64,000 nucleotides of DNA, taken from positions 1-64,000 of the forward strand of contig CAIXUG010000085.1 of assembly GCA_903922605.1 (NCBI GenBank). The letters run 5' to 3'. This document shows positions 56,789-64,000 of the stretch, piece by piece; the stretch's first letter is position 1; every line of letters starts with the position of its first letter. The translations under genes and the position numbers were made by a program. This DNA comes from an uncultured Verrucomicrobiota bacterium (lineage in GTDB: Bacteria > Verrucomicrobiota > Verrucomicrobiia > Limisphaerales > UBA9464). Under the pieces are notes generated by a model that was not told the origin of the DNA, did no database searches, and saw nothing but the letters and a program-made list of their open reading frames with translations.

Positions 56789-57757
56789 TCAGGAGGTATA
56801 AAACGTCGGTGGTGGCGTGACGGGCGGCGATACCGTGGCCGTCTTCGGAGCCGGCGACAGGGTATTTGGCGTCGCCTGGGCGGCCATCAGCTGCGCAAGC
56901 AGCGGCGAGGAAGGGGGCATGAGCGTCACCCGACCTTCGGAGTGCAGGATCTTTTGCGTCTCCAGCACGGCGAACAGGGCAGTGGCCACTTCCGCGTCCT
57001 GGGAAATCTTGTCCAAGGCGGCCCCCACGATGTGAGGGCGCATGGCGCTGGCCTTGGCAAACTCCACCGCCGCCTGCCGGTCCGCCGTGCTGGTGATGAT
57101 GCTGACCTGGTTGGCGCCGTCCTGCTTGATCGCGGAGGTCACCTGCCGGAGCCGGTTCACCACCTTGCTCTCGATCTGCTTGATCATGGCGACATCGCGG
57201 AAGTGAACCTTCCGGATGTACACGGAGCCGAGCTTGTAGCCCCACTCATGCGACTTGGGTGAAACTTCCGCCCGCACCGTGCTGCTCATGGCGTGGCGGT
57301 TGATCAGCATGTCGGCCAGTGGCAGGTTGCTGAGGCAGCGCACGGTCGAGTTGCTCACATTGGCCGCCAGCGAGCCGCGCGGATCGGTGTTCTTGAAGAG
57401 GTAGGACACCGGATCGCTGATGAACATCTCGTACCAGATGCCGATGCCCATGGGCGCGCCTTCCTCGGAGTTCACGGGCTGGCTGCGGAGGTATTCCTGG
57501 TCCAGCCGCATGTCGAGGACGTGGCGGGTGCCCATCCAGTTCACGATCAGGGCGCGCCAGCCCATCCGGGTGATCAGGAAGTGCAGGCCCGGCTCGTCAA
57601 TGGTGGCCACCACCTTGCCGAAGAGCATGTACACGAAGCAGCGGCGCTCCGGCACGACTGCGTAGAGCCCCAACAGACGGGCCAGCACCAGCAGCGCGGG
57701 CATGATGACAAATCCGGCGAAAAAGGTGACGCCGGCGGCGATCAGGAAGGGAATCAT
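56789..57757 (-). CDS. SPFH/band-7 family membrane protein
   Basis: 322 residues with N-terminal membrane segment (MIPFLIAAGVTFFAGFVIMPALLVL), then the SPFH domain: PERRCFVYMLFGKVVATIDEPGLHF, and a C-terminal coiled stretch with AIKQDGANQVSIITS, followed by a Pro/Thr-rich tail. Flotillin/HflK-like membrane-domain scaffolding protein. Overlaps the partner SPFH gene by 4 bases, so they form a pair like HflK-HflC, though they are not that pair by sequence. Confidence 0.85.
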   Translation of the reverse strand: MIPFLIAAGVTFFAGFVIMPALLVLARLLGLYAVVPERRCFVYMLFGKVVATIDEPGLHFLITRMGWRALIVNWMGTRHVLDMRLDQEYLRSQPVNSEEGAPMGIGIWYEMFISDPVSYLFKNTDPRGSLAANVSNSTVRCLSNLPLADMLINRHAMSSTVRAEVSPKSHEWGYKLGSVYIRKVHFRDVAMIKQIESKVVNRLRQVTSAIKQDGANQVSIITSTADRQAAVEFAKASAMRPHIVGAALDKISQDAEVATALFAVLETQKILHSEGRVTLMPPSSPLLAQLMAAQATPNTLSPAPKTATVSPPVTPPPTFYTS

Positions 57758-58755
57758 AGCTTGGCCTCCACAAAGATTTTCTGAGCCTTGTCGAACAGCG
57801 ACAGGCGGACGTTGCGAACGTAGGCGGCCAGCACACCGGAACCGCTGCGCTTCAGCTCGCCGAGCTGTTCGGCCTGGCGCATCAGCGGCTCGACCTCCGC
57901 CTGGGCGCGCAGCGTCTCGATTTCCACCGCCCGGCGTGACTGGACGATCTTCTGATCCGCCCCGGCCTGGGCCAGACTGATGTCGGACGACACCTGGTTA
58001 TACGCGGTGTTGATGGCTGCCAGCGCCGACTCGACCTCCGGCGGCGGGTCAATCCCGGTGATCAGCGAGGCGTCCAGCACCATGCCGTAGCGCGCCGCCG
58101 AGGAGCGGCATTCCCGGTCCATGTGCTCGTTGAGGTCGCGCATGTTCTTGCGGATGTCATTGATGGAGATGCCGGTCACGATCGTGGCATCCGGCCCACC
58201 AATCGCCGGGACTGCGACCGCCAACGTGGACGGATGCGGCGCCTCAAAGTTGGCGATACGCTCACGGAGCACCGAGACGAAGTAGCCCATGACGTGGGCG
58301 ATCGGGCGCTTCACACCAAAGAGATACGCATAGAGATTCCGCTCCGAAACGCGGTAGCGGATCTGGCCGGTAAGGCCGGTGTTCAGCTGATCCTTGGTGA
58401 CCGCCTCCAGGATCGTGCCGCGACCGTTGGCCGAGACGTCCATCGGGTCCCAGGCCATGTTTACGGTCTCCGTGGCGATGGAGACCTTGTAAACCCGCTC
58501 CCAGGGCCAGCGGAAGTACGGCCCGCCCGGCGGAATGACGCGCACTTGTGGATACGTGTAGCGCAGCTTTTCGTCGGCGGTGAGCGGTTCGGAAATAGGA
58601 TCGTCCGCCGTCGTCTGCTCGCCCACCCGCTGGGCGCGGCCAAAGCTCGTTTTCACGGCGCGCTCGTTCTGGTTGACCGTGTAGAGGCCAGCCACGACGT
58701 AGCGGACGAGAAACCAAGCCACGAACCCGAAGAGACAGCCGGCAAGGATATTCAT
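57754..58755 (-). CDS. SPFH-domain (HflK-like) membrane protein
   Basis: 333 residues: N-terminal helix (MNILAGCLFGFVAWFLVRYV), then SPFH domain VNQNERAVKTSFGRAQ, ending in an alpha-helical region with SSDISLAQAGADQKIVQSRR and EIETLRAQAEVEPLMRQAEQ. ATG 58755 preferred over the longer ORF starting 58815. Overlaps the next SPFH gene by 4 bases. Together they may form a hetero-oligomeric membrane microdomain scaffold or protease regulator. Confidence 0.85.
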   Translation of the reverse strand: MNILAGCLFGFVAWFLVRYVVAGLYTVNQNERAVKTSFGRAQRVGEQTTADDPISEPLTADEKLRYTYPQVRVIPPGGPYFRWPWERVYKVSIATETVNMAWDPMDVSANGRGTILEAVTKDQLNTGLTGQIRYRVSERNLYAYLFGVKRPIAHVMGYFVSVLRERIANFEAPHPSTLAVAVPAIGGPDATIVTGISINDIRKNMRDLNEHMDRECRSSAARYGMVLDASLITGIDPPPEVESALAAINTAYNQVSSDISLAQAGADQKIVQSRRAVEIETLRAQAEVEPLMRQAEQLGELKRSGSGVLAAYVRNVRLSLFDKAQKIFVEAKL

Positions 58756-58922
58756 AATTGGACGGACGCTTGTTACTCCCATCGGAGGATGCCCCCAAGT
58801 GGAATCTCCCGACATCTGTGTAACCGGGTCCCAGCTCCAAGGTAACAGAGAACCGGGCAGTGTATCAGCTTGCTCGAATTCCCATTTGGCAAGGACAGCG
58901 CGCTGGGCGTCGTCTCTACCGC

Positions 58923-59042
58923 AGTAGGTCAGGCTGCCAGCCTGACAGGTATGGCGGGCTGGCAGCCCGCCGATAGCGACCGCGCAGTGCCCGACGGGCT
59001 GGAAGCCCGCCGTACGGTGTCGGGCCAGCGGCCCGACCTACT
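58923..59042. repeat. Nested-palindrome intergenic element (copy 2)
   Basis: Perfect ends AGTAGGTC (58923-58930) and GACCTACT (59035-59042). Inside: GTCAGGCTG-C-CAGCCTGAC (58928-58946), GGCGGGCTG-G-CAGCCCGCC (58953-58971), CGGGCT-GGA-AGCCCG (58995-59009) and GTCGGGCC-AGC-GGCCCGAC (59019-59037). The last palindrome and outer ends match copy 1. The element ends 1 base before the stop codon of the downstream hybrid kinase (which begins at 59044 on the minus strand). Confidence 0.9.
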
Positions 59043-59043
59043 A

Positions 59044-61071
59044 TCAGGCCAGGACGGCGCGCAATTTCTCACGGAGCAGTTCGGCGGTGAAGGGCTTCTG
59101 CAGAAACCCGGCCAGCCCGCGTCCCAGGAAACGCTGCAAGGCCTCCTGCTCGCTGAAGCCGCTCATGAGCACCACCCGCATCTCCGGCTTGATCGCCCGG
59201 ATACGCCGGAAGGCCTCCTCGCCATCCATCATGGGCATGGTGAGATCCAGCAGGACCATTGCGATGCGCTCCTGATGCTGCTGGAACAGCCCGAGCGCCT
59301 CGGCTCCATTGCGGGCCTGAAGCACCTCGAACCCGAGGAACTCCATCATTTTCACGGCGATGCCGCGGACCGAATCGTCATCGTCCACCACGAGAGCGAG
59401 GCCGGAACCGCGCCAGCCGGAAGTCTCGTGGGCAGCGGCATGGCTTTCCTCGTCGCTTCGGGTGGAGACGGGCAGCAGCACCTTGAAGGTCGTTCCCTTG
59501 CCCGCCTCACTGTACACCTTCACCCCGCCCCGATGCCCACGGATGATGCCGAGGACGGCGGCCAACCCCAGACCGCGCCCGGTAAACTTCGTGCTGAAGA
59601 ACGGCTCGAAGATGCGTCCCAGTTTGTCGGGCGGAATGCCGCAGCCATTGTCACCCACCTCCAGAAACACGTAATCACCCACCGCCAATTCCGGCGTACC
59701 CAGGGTGTGGTCCAGATAATTGCGGTCCGCGAGCAACCGGCCGGTCTGGATCCGGATGACCCCGGCTTTTCCTTCCAGGGCTTCCGAGGCGTTGATGACC
59801 AGATTCATGACGATCTGGCGGAGTTGGCTGGCATCGGCCTTCACCCGGGGGAGCTGTTCCGCCAGCTCATAGGAAAGCACGGCCGACTTGCTGATCGAGC
59901 TTTGCAGCAGGAACACGGATTCCCGCACCAGAAGGCTCAGATCAATGGGTTCGACTACGAACCGCCCCTTCCCCGCGTAGGCCAGGAGCTGATGGCACAA
60001 ATCGCCTGCCTGCATGGCCGCCTGCTGGATCTGGTCCAGATGCCCCGCCAACTGCGAGGCCGGGTCCATCTGCATCCTGGCCAGCGAAGCATTGCCCACC
60101 ACTCCGGTGAGCAGGTTGTTGAAGTCATGGGCAATCCCGCCGGCCAGCACGCCAAGGCTCTCCAGCTTCTGCGTTTCCAGCATTTTGCGCTCGATCAGCT
60201 GGCGCTCGGTCTCCGCCTGCTTGCGCGTCGTGATGTCGATAAACGCCCCGACCGCGCCCCGGATCTTCTTTTCGCCATCACGCAGGGGGGCGGCGTATGC
60301 CAGCAGGTGCAGCACGCTGCCGTCTTCGAAGCGCACCTCTTCCTCCATGTCCCGGATGACCTCATCATTGGCGGCGGCCAGCTGCATGGGCAGCTGATCG
60401 GGCGGCACCAGCTCGCCCGCCACATAGACCTGAAAATGTTTCGGCACTTCGGCACGTCCGGCGGAGAGGGAAACGTTGCCCCCTTCCGAAGAACGCAGGA
60501 GCCGGTGCAGCGCGGTGTTGGCACGGATGTGCCGGCATTCCCGGTCGGAAGCGATGCCGATGCCGACCGGCAGGACGTTCAGCAGCGTTTCCAGCTCCTC
60601 GACCCGGTGCTGAAGGGCGGCGTTAAGATGTCGGACCTCCTCCTCGGCCCACTTGCGCTCCTCGACCTCGGATCGCAGCTCCTCATTGAGCCGCATCGCG
60701 CCGGGCAGCGCCATGGCGCGCGGCAGCACCCGCACCACCGCCACGACCGTGGTCCAGGCAGCAACCCCGGCAAACAGCTTGATCAGGGCGGAAAACCGGT
60801 ACCACGGCTGCCAGAACAGGCTGGCATCCACCAGAAATAACAGGCCGCAGACGAGGATGAAGGTCGCAAACAACCAGTAAAGGCGCGGGAAATACAGGTC
60901 ACGGCGGCGGATGACGTAGCAGAGAATGCAGGCTGCCATCGCCATGAAGGCGCCAAAAAGCAGCAGATCCGCTCCGACCTGGACCCAGCCATGCGTCTTG
61001 GTCCACGCAGGCCCATGCCACGGCGGCGTGAACCCGTCGGTGCCAAGCAGTTCACTGGAAAGAGCCATCAT
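59044..61071 (-). CDS. Hybrid histidine kinase with ethylene-receptor-like membrane domain
   Basis: 675 residues: three membrane helices (about residues 30-55, 65-85 and 95-118), a coiled linker, a PAS domain (about 160-285), HisKA with His315 in GGIAHDFNNLLTG, HATPase with NLVINASEALEG and DNGCGIP, and a C-terminal receiver with Asp609 in LLDLTMPMMDG. The first 120 residues align with plant and cyanobacterial ethylene receptors: Asp35, Ile72 and Cys75 match ETR1 Asp25, Ile62 and Cys65 with a constant offset of 10, and the third helix ends VLPRAM like ETR1 IIPDLL. However, the copper-binding His (ETR1 His69) is Phe79, and Tyr32 is Phe42. The signal is unknown. Transcribed divergently from the kinase at 61346. 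Confidence 0.9.
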   Translation of the reverse strand: MMALSSELLGTDGFTPPWHGPAWTKTHGWVQVGADLLLFGAFMAMAACILCYVIRRRDLYFPRLYWLFATFILVCGLLFLVDASLFWQPWYRFSALIKLFAGVAAWTTVVAVVRVLPRAMALPGAMRLNEELRSEVEERKWAEEEVRHLNAALQHRVEELETLLNVLPVGIGIASDRECRHIRANTALHRLLRSSEGGNVSLSAGRAEVPKHFQVYVAGELVPPDQLPMQLAAANDEVIRDMEEEVRFEDGSVLHLLAYAAPLRDGEKKIRGAVGAFIDITTRKQAETERQLIERKMLETQKLESLGVLAGGIAHDFNNLLTGVVGNASLARMQMDPASQLAGHLDQIQQAAMQAGDLCHQLLAYAGKGRFVVEPIDLSLLVRESVFLLQSSISKSAVLSYELAEQLPRVKADASQLRQIVMNLVINASEALEGKAGVIRIQTGRLLADRNYLDHTLGTPELAVGDYVFLEVGDNGCGIPPDKLGRIFEPFFSTKFTGRGLGLAAVLGIIRGHRGGVKVYSEAGKGTTFKVLLPVSTRSDEESHAAAHETSGWRGSGLALVVDDDDSVRGIAVKMMEFLGFEVLQARNGAEALGLFQQHQERIAMVLLDLTMPMMDGEEAFRRIRAIKPEMRVVLMSGFSEQEALQRFLGRGLAGFLQKPFTAELLREKLRAVLA

Positions 61072-61263
61072 GACAGATTGGGCTGTGGATGGACCGCCTC
61101 ATACCGCAGGCGCTATCTGTTATCAGGCCCATCTGCCCGTTGCCGATTTATAATGGAAATCTTCATCACCGCAGCACAAAAGAAAAGGCTACCGGGGAAC
61201 CTGAAAACGCAAAGGTGAGACTTGCCCTCCCAGCCGGTCTCACAGCGGCACTCCCGTCCTAAA

Positions 61264-61345
61264 TCACCACATCGGCAAAATCGGGTGAAACTGAAGCAAA
61301 TCGGGGGATTTGCCTATGTCTCCCGTTTCCCCTACCAAGTAGGCG
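61264..61345 (+). promoter_or_regulatory. Hairpin-rich leader of the downstream kinase
   Basis: Three consecutive hairpins are visible: TCGG-GTGAAA-CTGA (61281-61294), GCAAATC-GGGG-GATTTGC (61296-61313) and CCTAC-CAA-GTAGG (61331-61343), the last ending 2 bases before the ATG at 61346. GGCAAA, GCAAA and CCTA segments recall parts of the c-di-GMP-I (GEMM) riboswitch, but the conserved core does not match well. It may be a translational control element; identity is not established. Confidence 0.4.
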
Positions 61346-64000
61346 ATGGCCGAGGACAAATGTCCCACAAAGCCGCACCCCGGCATTGCCGCGTGCCGGC
61401 TGCGGGCATTGCCTTTGATCTTAACCCTTCTGGCCGCAACGGTTGCACCGGCAAGGGCCGTCGAAACGCCGCCCCTCCTGACCAATGTTCTCCAAGTTCT
61501 GCGGCTGCGCGCTGGCGAAGCCAGAGCCGGCTTTCCCGTGCGCCTGGAAGGAGTGGTGACCTATTCCTCGAAGGAGATGCGCCTTGCGTTTGTTCAGGAC
61601 GCCACAGGAGGGGTGCCGGTGGAAAACAACTCTGACCTGGCGTTGGAATTTGGCCAGCAGGTCGCGCTGGAGGGACGCACCGATCGCGGACTTTTTGCCC
61701 CGGTGATCCGGCAGGTCGTTTCCAAATCGCTCGGGCCAGGCGACCTGCCCCCACCCCGGCATCCCACAGCGGACGAGCTGCAAACCGGCCGAGTGGACAG
61801 CCAGTGGTGCGAGATCGAAGGCACGGTCCGCTCGGTTTCCTACGAACCCGGCTCGCTGACTCTTGAGCTTTCCGTGGAGAACCGGCGCTTGCAGGCCGTG
61901 TGCCGGCATGGGCAGGAGGTCAACCCTGAAGATTGGGTCGAGGCACGGGTCCGGGTTCGGGGCGTTGCCGGCTCCCACTTCAACGGCCGGCAGCAGTTCG
62001 TCGGCCCCCTGCTGCTGGTGCCCAACCTAGGGCAAATCAGCGTGCTGCAATTGCCCCGGGGCAACCCGTTTCTATTGCCGGTCACGACTTTGGGTGACAT
62101 CGGCCGTTATCTTTCGCAGCACACACCCGGTGAGCGCATCCATGTACAGGGGGCGGTCACCCTCTTCGTGCCCGGACACGCACTCTATGTTCAGGACCAG
62201 ACCGGGTCCATCGAGGTCCGCACCACGCAGCGGACCCCCTTGGAAACGGGCGACCGGGTGGACGTCATCGGCTTTTACCAGCAGGAGAAGAACTCCATCG
62301 TGATCGAGGACGGCAACTTCCGCCGCCTCGGCAACGGGGCGCCTCTGATCGCCAGGGCCGCCGCGCCCGCCGATTTGCATGACGGACGGCTCGAATCGGA
62401 ACTGGTCACCATCGAAGCCACGCTCCAAGGCTCACAACGCGCCACCACCTCGCAACTGCTCCTGCTGCAGACGGACGCTTCCGTCTTCAACGCCCGGCTC
62501 TACGGCACCAACGCCTTGGCGGAAATGGCGGCCGGCAGCCGGGTGAAAGCCACCGGCATCTTCCATTCCACGGCCAATTCACTGCTCCCCGGACTTTCGT
62601 TTGAGCTGCTGTTGCGCTCTCCGGCCGATGTGGAGGTGGTTTCCTCCCCGTCCTGGTGGGATAGCAGGCACATCCTCTGGGTCACTGCGGGCATATTGCT
62701 GCTGGGCGTCCTGATCCTTATACGGGCAGTGGAGCTTGCCCGCACGAATGCCCGGCTGGAACAGCGGGTCAGCAAGCGCACCGGGGAGCTGCAAAAGGCC
62801 AAAGAATCCGCCGAGACGGCCAATGAGGCCAAGAGCGAGTTTCTCGCCACCATGAGCCATGAGATCCGCACGCCGATGAACGCCATCATCGGCATGAGCG
62901 GGCTGCTGCTCGACACTCCGCTCAATGCCGAGCAGAAGGAATTCACCGAGACGGTGCGCGGCAGCGCCGAAGCCCTCCTCGCCATCATCAACGAGATCCT
63001 CGACTTCTCCAAGATTGAGGCCGGTAAGCTGACGTTTGAAACGGTGGATTTCGACCTGCGTGAAGTGGTGGAAACGACCATGGAACTGCTCGCCGGTGCC
63101 ACCGCCAACAGGCAGATCGAACTTGCCTGCCTGATCGATGACGGGGTTCCCACCCGCTTGCGCGGCGATCCCGGGCGCCTGCGGCAGATCCTGCTCAACC
63201 TGACCGGCAACGCCGTGAAGTTCACCCGGCACGGCGAGGTGTTTGTCCGGGTCAGCCTCGAGGGCGGAAGCGAAACGGATGCCCTGCTCCGCTTTGAGAT
63301 CAAAGACACCGGCATCGGCATCCCCGCCGAGGCGCAGGCGCGGCTCTTCCAGCCCTTCAGCCAGGCGGACGGCTCGACCACCCGGAAGTATGGCGGCACC
63401 GGGCTCGGGCTGGTGATCTCCCGGCGTCTCGCGGAGATGATGCACGGCCAGATCGGCTTCCAGAGCGAACCCGGACGCGGCTCGCTCTTCTGGTTCACCG
63501 CGCGGCTGTCTCGGCAGCTGCAGGGCCCCACCCCTGCGGCCGCCCGGAACTTCGAAAACGTTCACACCCTGATTGTGGACGACAACGCCACGAACCGCGC
63601 CATCCTCGAACGCCAGCTGGCCTCCTGGCACATGCCGACGGAGAGTGCGGCGACGGCCACCGAAGCGTTGTTGCGGCTGCGCGAGGCCAGTGCCGCCGGA
63701 CAGCCGTTCCGCCTGGCCCTGCTCGACATGGAGATGCCGTACATGGACGGCCTGACCCTCGCGGAAGCCATCCGGAGTGACAGCACCATCACCGCGCCGC
63801 GGATGATATTGCAGACGTCCGTTTGCGACCGGACGCAGCCCGCCGACATCCGGCGTGCCGGCATCGCCGCCTGCGTGACCAAGCCGGTCCGGTTGTCCGA
63901 CCTGGGCGACTGCATCGACCGCGTGCTCAAGTCCAACGGCAGCGCCACATCCGCGGAACCAACGGCAACCCGCGCCCGCCCGGCCACTCCCGCCAAAGCG
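61346..64000 (+). CDS. Hybrid sensor histidine kinase, truncated by window end
   Basis: 885 residues visible, open to the last base. Starts with ATG 61346; signal sequence [18 protein letters not shown] (about 22-39). A large extracytoplasmic region (40-440) has several OB-fold-like beta modules ([21 protein letters not shown] and [20 protein letters not shown], both ending in LFVQD/LYVQD-type strands). A membrane helix at 443-462 and coiled coil follow, then HisKA with His505 in [14 protein letters not shown], HATPase ([17 protein letters not shown]) and one receiver with Asp794 ([11 protein letters not shown]). More receivers or an Hpt domain may follow outside the window. Signal unknown. 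Confidence 0.9.

Follow-up and report, generated by a model that had tools for sequence, protein, structure and literature searches.

The window analyzed here, a stretch of 64,000 nucleotides from an uncultured Verrucomicrobiota bacterium, encodes a hybrid histidine kinase of 675 amino acids (59044 to 61071, minus strand) in which the N-terminal membrane domain is of the type found in the plant ethylene receptor ETR1, with most of the residues of the ethylene/copper site replaced. Judging from the sequences compared, we consider it somewhat more probable than its alternatives together (roughly 55%) that binding of Cu(I) and ethylene has been lost, that the three-helix scaffold has been kept as an anchor and transmitter, and that input probably arrives via the PAS domain. 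The homology of the domain, its residue pattern, the restricted distribution of the form in the searched genomes and the constraint on the kinase are direct observations. The protein would thus offer a natural experiment separating scaffold and transmission, which look kept, from ligand binding, which looks lost, in an ethylene-receptor domain.

All five domains of the protein scored above their Pfam cutoffs, in the order ETR1_N (residues 27 to 122), linker, PAS_4 (164 to 285), HisKA (309 to 366), HATPase_c (413 to 536), and receiver (560 to 670). The ETR1_N match (PF25487) reached 74.8 bits (E value of 6.7e-21) against a curated cutoff of 27, which is far beyond chance and marks it, by profile score, as a genuine member, in agreement with an earlier note on this DNA that had placed an ETR1-type three-helix domain at the N terminus. 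A six-frame profile search located the domain, with its altered pocket and retained scaffold, at 60706 to 60993 (minus strand, 79.6 bits), and the kinase was the sole ETR1_N match in the window genome at an E value of 0.001. When a better-matching sensor family was sought by profile search, as the note had proposed, Pfam gave none over the membrane region at E values up to 1, and the best 25 of 146 NCBIfam matches were kinase or regulator models, with no rival sensor family among them. The hallmarks of a hybrid kinase were all found by Pfam and motif position, including the HisKA histidine (HDFNN, 315), the HATPase boxes (DNGCGI, 474, and GRGLGLA, 498), and the receiver aspartate and lysine (LLDLTMP, 607, and QKPF, 658). 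AlphaFold2 predicted helices at residues 25 to 55, 63 to 85, and 89 to 119, followed by a signaling helix at 123 to 166, i.e., the three membrane helices plus signaling helix of PF25487, in a model of moderate confidence (mean pLDDT of 72, pTM of 0.46, four-row alignment) in which membrane insertion is itself a prediction. The same helix layout was predicted for the His-bearing domain L007 of a Gemmataceae genome (G631). In a comparison of folds with the PDB, none of the 166 matches had an E value of ≤0.001.

The residues of the site were initially compared with the ETR1 sequence and 125 other domains, those below 60 bits being left out. Alignment confirmed what the earlier note had read, namely that Asp35, Ile72, and Cys75 are kept and that Phe42 and Phe79 stand for Tyr32 and His69. 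Its constant offset of 10 relative to ETR1 applies in helices 1 and 2 but gives way to 7 in helix 3 (Lys98 = Lys91 and Pro117 = Pro110). Together with Lys98, the retained residues are the counterparts of ETR1 Asp25, Ile62, Cys65, and Lys91, and so both members of the Asp25-Lys91 pair, which is tied to receptor output, are present. The site loss is wider than had been noticed, since Ile35, Pro36, Thr94, and Ser98 of ETR1 are also replaced (by Met45, Ala46, Ala101, and Ala105), and at the positions of the bacterial Cys20 and His31, which precede helix 1, the window protein has Gly and Gln. The Gln says little, because ETR1 also has Gln there. Among the seven residues required for ethylene binding (D25, Y32, I35, P36, I62, C65, and H69), only three have counterparts in the window domain (D35, I72, and C75) and four are replaced, so that the full set of a functional ethylene receptor is absent. 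This fits the idea of a diverged domain that has lost most of its copper/ethylene site and apparently kept its scaffold. Of the two Cu(I) ligands, Cys65 is retained as Cys75 and His69 has become Phe79, both in the window and in the second genome of the genus that carries the kinase (G004).

According to PMC11819568, seven is the number of residues required for ethylene binding, mutation of Asp25 abolishes binding by ETR1, and ETR1 D25, C65, H69, and K91 correspond to D35, C75, H79, and K98 of the Azospirillum brasilense receptor AzoEtr1. As described in PMC6586836, Ile35, Pro36, Ile62, Cys65, and His69 are essential, binding being lost on their mutation, Ser98 has a moderate effect on binding, and Thr94 matters for transmission of the signal but has no role in binding. 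A search of open-access PubMed Central found no paper on ETR1-type variants lacking His69; natural variants of the Asp are mentioned in a 2026 review (PMC13012798).

The Phe at codon 79 (60835 to 60837, minus strand) is encoded by TTT in the window and by TTC in G004; His occupies this place in 152 of the 160 other full-length domains. The Phe is unlikely to stem from a single read error, because at least two base changes are needed to turn a His codon into TTT or TTC, and we rejected sequencing or assembly error altogether, as G004 has the same residues, the same SPFH neighbors, and 93% nucleotide identity over the gene. Another peculiarity is the Cys48-Ile-Leu-Cys51 motif in helix 1 (60919 to 60930, minus strand), which is rare in other domains: Cys48 was seen in none of 163 and Cys51 in three, and both are present in G004.

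To place these replacements within the family, we assembled a final set of 166 rows, consisting of two from the window, one from G004, and 163 others; 160 of the latter span the full domain. Identical domain sequences were entered once and domains below 30 bits were excluded; the partial L057, L206, and one L141 piece are outside the 160, no row came from the weak matches G143, G294, G320, G1173, and G1170, and G001 was set aside. The published seven residues are well preserved in these 160 domains, all seven being kept in 114, six in 31, five in 4, and four in 4, i.e., at least four in 153. The remaining seven rows keep two or fewer and all belong to a single family, f51. The same seven rows and L065 (from G310) are the eight without His; L065 has Tyr at this place and is otherwise complete for the seven, with six kept. 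The exchanges of Tyr for Phe and Ile for Met are mild and occur in other rows as well. An ETR1_N match alone should not be equated with annotation as an ethylene receptor, as 8 of the 160 lack the His.

A second count was based on 30 columns in which conservation among the 160 others reaches 80% or more, a choice made independently of the window. The window and G004 differ from the conserved residue at 13 of these columns, the same ones in both (Cys20, His31, Ser34, Ile38, Tyr42, Ile45, Pro46, Leu49, His79, Thr101, Ala102, Ser105, and Leu112), against a median of 2 in the others, and the columns kept include Asp35, Phe68, Phe71, Ile72, Cys75, Gly76, Trp87, Tyr91, Lys98, Thr108, and Pro117. Nine of the 160 (the seven f51 rows, L078, and L142) reach 13 departures or more as well, and a high degree of divergence is thus not peculiar to the window. 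What sets the window apart, although it does not diverge the most, is where its changes fall: at Cys20, His31, Tyr42, Ile45, Pro46, His79, Thr101, and Ser105, along with the five other columns named, while the columns listed as kept stay. The counts of 0 of 8 pocket and 15 of 15 scaffold positions follow from the choice of positions, which were picked after seeing the window differences (the scaffold list including three of the seven binding residues), and the published-seven and 30-column counts are the fair ones.

The altered form has a narrow distribution. A search with the window's own domain across 320 genomes of the order gave matches in 21, one of which (G001, a weak match in a congener) turned out on reading to be false, being another kind of membrane protein that lies next to a glutamyl-tRNA-reductase-like frame. 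Phe at the place of the His was found only in the window genome (G000) and its congener G004 among these matches, that of G146 being partial. Within the genus, the full protein is present in two of eight genomes, some of the others being incomplete (down to 54%), and the neighboring SPFH gene in five of eight; simple gene calls gave no such kinase beside the SPFH gene in G006 and G007. ETR1_N domains themselves are patchy, occurring in 4 of 58 near relatives (a count that includes the window genome), 51 of 384 genomes of a class sample, 42 of 392 of the phylum sample of L007, 39 of 239 of the order sample of G200, and 13 of 83 of the family of G296, and none of the domains fetched from the latter four samples was of the window's His-less type. 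The expectation of a diverged sensor family in Verrucomicrobiota, which would have the form common to several genera, was not borne out: among the 320 order genomes it occurs in one genus, in no other readable domain, and the nearest kinases have both Tyr and His. Phe79 is shared by the window and G004, as far as conservation among homologues goes, but His is the rule in the full-length others. The sequences point to a real loss of most of the site residues, probably a lineage-specific loss giving an ethylene-blind offshoot of two related species rather than a widespread family.

In a quick tree of 127 rows with the pocket columns removed, the window and G004 formed a pair (SH-aLRT of 100) on a stem of 0.79, the median end branch being 0.3. 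The pair, which represents one shared loss event, was nested in a group of ten rows (support of 89), the remaining eight of which retain the His, inside a 73-row clade (99). Only this nested position is used here, as the columns are few for so many rows. The nearest kinases by core identity are G142 (54%), Gemmataceae G631 (48%), and G235 (44%), all three with Tyr and His. Among these three, the membrane domain is 6 to 10 points more similar than the core (57 versus 51%, 52 versus 45%, and 51 versus 41%), whereas between the window and each of them (G142, G631, and G235, respectively) it is from 4 points lower to equal (51 versus 54%, 44 versus 48%, and 44 versus 44%).

The comparison between the window and G004 goes in the same direction, with 10 differences in residues 1 to 122 and 18 in the other 553. 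The dN/dS ratio was 0.40 within residues 1 to 122 (bootstrap range of 0.14 to 1.08), a value inflated by the lower dS there (0.10 versus 0.23 outside), and 0.07 outside (0.04 to 0.11); in 999 bootstraps, the inside value exceeded the outside one 99.8% of the time. For the linker-PAS, kinase core, and receiver it was 0.06 to 0.09, and for the whole gene 0.10. The ratio of change in the membrane domain to the rest was 2.25 for the window pair, the highest of 47 overlapping pairs (window pair included, pairs below 65% identity outside the membrane domain excluded) and followed by 1.65, on three changes; the window pair also tops a second list of pairs, restricted to domains of at least 60 bits. 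Fisher's test of membrane domain versus rest gave a P value of 0.02 for residues 1 to 122 and 0.15 for 27 to 122. The likely interpretation is that the sensor is relaxed or diverging while the kinase behind it stays constrained, with modest support for a fast membrane domain. With kinase core and receiver intact and constrained, the protein probably still signals.

Downstream from the kinase are two SPFH/Band 7 proteins (PF01145), one of 353 amino acids (57754 to 58815, minus strand, 54.1 bits) and one of 322 (56789 to 57757, minus strand, 46.3 bits) that overlaps the first by 4 bases. The order of kinase and SPFH is the same in G004, with a gap of 63 bp; palindromic repeats lie between the two genes in the window (58855 to 59043) and are absent in G004. 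Upstream, a second, divergent hybrid histidine kinase starts at 61346 (plus strand) and runs past the window end at 64000 to contig position 64420 (1,024 amino acids). G004 lacks a counterpart of the region from 61385 to 64088 at this place, and only pieces of the 3' end of the second kinase remain there. None of these scanned neighbors (two SPFH proteins and one hybrid kinase) gives a pointer to a ligand. ARAGORN called a tRNA-Ser antisense inside the kinase gene (60455 to 60548, plus strand), probably falsely, since there is no Rfam match there; an RNA element was rejected, as Rfam had no match in the whole interval from 58000 to 62500, and no sigma-70 promoter was found in 60900 to 61500. 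A role in defense was discarded (kinase and both SPFH proteins without PADLOC match), as was carriage by plasmids, the 127-amino-acid domain having no plasmid match at an E value of 0.001. The whole kinase matched 4,153 plasmid records, 4 of them with at least 80% coverage, and the matches listed (8) start at residue 148 or later.

In the scenario that we favor, the ancestor would have been a bacterial hybrid kinase of the ethylene-receptor type with a copper site that was dismantled in one genus, leaving a protein that most likely binds neither Cu(I) nor ethylene. The three-helix domain would stay as membrane anchor, dimer scaffold, and transmitter; the presence of Asp35 and Lys98, of the packing aromatics, and of the Cys-Gly of helix 2 suggests that the scaffold is retained. 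Even so, the Asp-Lys pair is not indispensable, because the nearest kinase by core, G142, has Asn at the place of Lys98. Input would probably have been taken over by the PAS domain (or by a membrane or SPFH partner), and output would pass through the protein's own receiver into a phosphorelay. A hybrid kinase at another locus of the window genome (G000:C47:46020-48824) is 47% identical to the window kinase from residue 99 on (linker, PAS, kinase, and receiver) and has a different, by eye CHASE-like, sensor in front, so a change of input would be ordinary for such a kinase body.

The same replacements might instead reflect a repurposed membrane sensor, in which the pocket, emptied and now more hydrophobic, takes up some other small hydrophobic molecule, or Cys48/Cys51 and Cys75 sense redox state or a soft metal, driving the kinase. 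We hold this, the most attractive of the alternatives, to be possible but rather unlikely. Preservation of the scaffold columns and of the helix 2 Cys would fit, as would the new Cys pair (Cys48 in 0 and Cys51 in 3 of the 163 others) being found in both the window and G004, the maintenance of Phe79 across a synonymous TTT/TTC change, and the whole-gene dN/dS. On the other hand, the membrane domain seems to have changed rapidly from one genome to the other, as would be expected if constraint were relaxed, and the scanned neighbors suggest no ligand. A single joint site of Cys48, Cys51, and Cys75 is doubtful, as hairpin geometry would put the new pair deeper, nearer the cytoplasmic side, than Cys75. 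A truly neofunctionalised fold, either with a Cys48-x-x-Cys51 thiol site acting with Cys75 as a redox or soft-metal switch or with a Phe-lined pocket holding another hydrophobic volatile, appears improbable from the sequence, and we know of no ETR1-type domain shown to have a natural ligand other than ethylene.

The fast membrane domain could also be taken for decay, the late stage of the loss of a receptor whose gene was not found in the other six genus genomes. The presence of the full protein in only two of eight genomes, some of the others being incomplete, is consistent with this, and so is the mostly missing neighboring hybrid kinase in G004. However, the frame and the kinase and receiver motifs are intact in both genomes and dN/dS remains at 0.06 to 0.09 outside the sensor, making it improbable that the whole protein is on its way out. 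Continued binding of Cu(I) and ethylene at an altered site, in which a substitute ligand would join Cys75 and Asp35, is the least credible reading. Both residues are kept, and in the simulations described in PMC6586836 the copper of ETR1 is held on Cys65, with infrequent contact to Asp25, but four of the seven necessary residues are replaced, Phe occupies the place of His69, and the Thr94 and Ser98 counterparts are gone.

Among described receptors, AzoEtr1 resembles the window kinase in having ETR1-type helices followed by PAS and histidine kinase and in D35, C75, and K98, but it has all seven residues, including H79, binds ethylene, and uses a separate response regulator gene, according to PMC11819568, whereas the window protein has three of seven and its own receiver. 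Arabidopsis ETR1 (PMC6586836) shares the domain family, the Asp25, Ile62, Cys65, and Lys91 counterparts, and the hybrid kinase with receiver. It has GAF where the window has PAS, and its His69, Tyr32, Ile35, Pro36, Thr94, and Ser98 are those replaced in the window. The domains of G142 (L211), G235 (L148), and G631 (L007) are joined to HisKA, HATPase, and receiver as in the window (44 to 51% membrane and 44 to 54% core identity), with a PAS in the first two and no PAS match in G631, and unlike the window they keep the Tyr32, Ile35, Pro36, His69, Thr94, and Ser98 counterparts. Comparing the window with the His-bearing G142 and G235 could reveal which residues are needed for signaling without ethylene.

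The f51 group (L080, L081, L082, L202, L203, L208, and L209), seven domains from six genomes of another family of the class, matches ETR1_N and lacks the His like the window. Unlike the window, these rows also lack the Asp and Tyr and lose scaffold positions (9 to 11 of 15 remaining), with Cys75 in four of seven. They have an extra N-terminal hydrophobic stretch (by eye), and the three placed in the tree fall elsewhere than the window, on long branches; from their sequences, they look like a separate loss. Both f51 proteins scanned have HisKA and no HATPase match at an E value of 0.01, followed by the receiver, and L202 ends before the receiver, so that f51 may represent proteins that combine a histidine domain with a receiver and lack their own ATPase domain, which would be unusual.

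A different combination was found in G045, a genome of the window's own order. One frame of 1,508 amino acids (G045:C679, L210:2409-6932, minus strand) joins a heavy-metal-associated (HMA) domain and a CPC-type P-type ATPase, probably for copper, to ETR1_N, PAS, HisKA, and HATPase. Pfam shows one HMA stretch; the His is kept, and Asn stands at the place of Asp25. The ATPase phosphorylation motif was found in no other ETR1_N frame of an interim set of fetched loci, and this single instance comes from a genome listed with 6% contamination. The plant protein RAN1 passes copper toward ethylene receptors, as described in PMC12643061 and PMC6656775, and the union of a pump and an ethylene-receptor-type kinase in one protein echoes plant RAN1 and ETR1.
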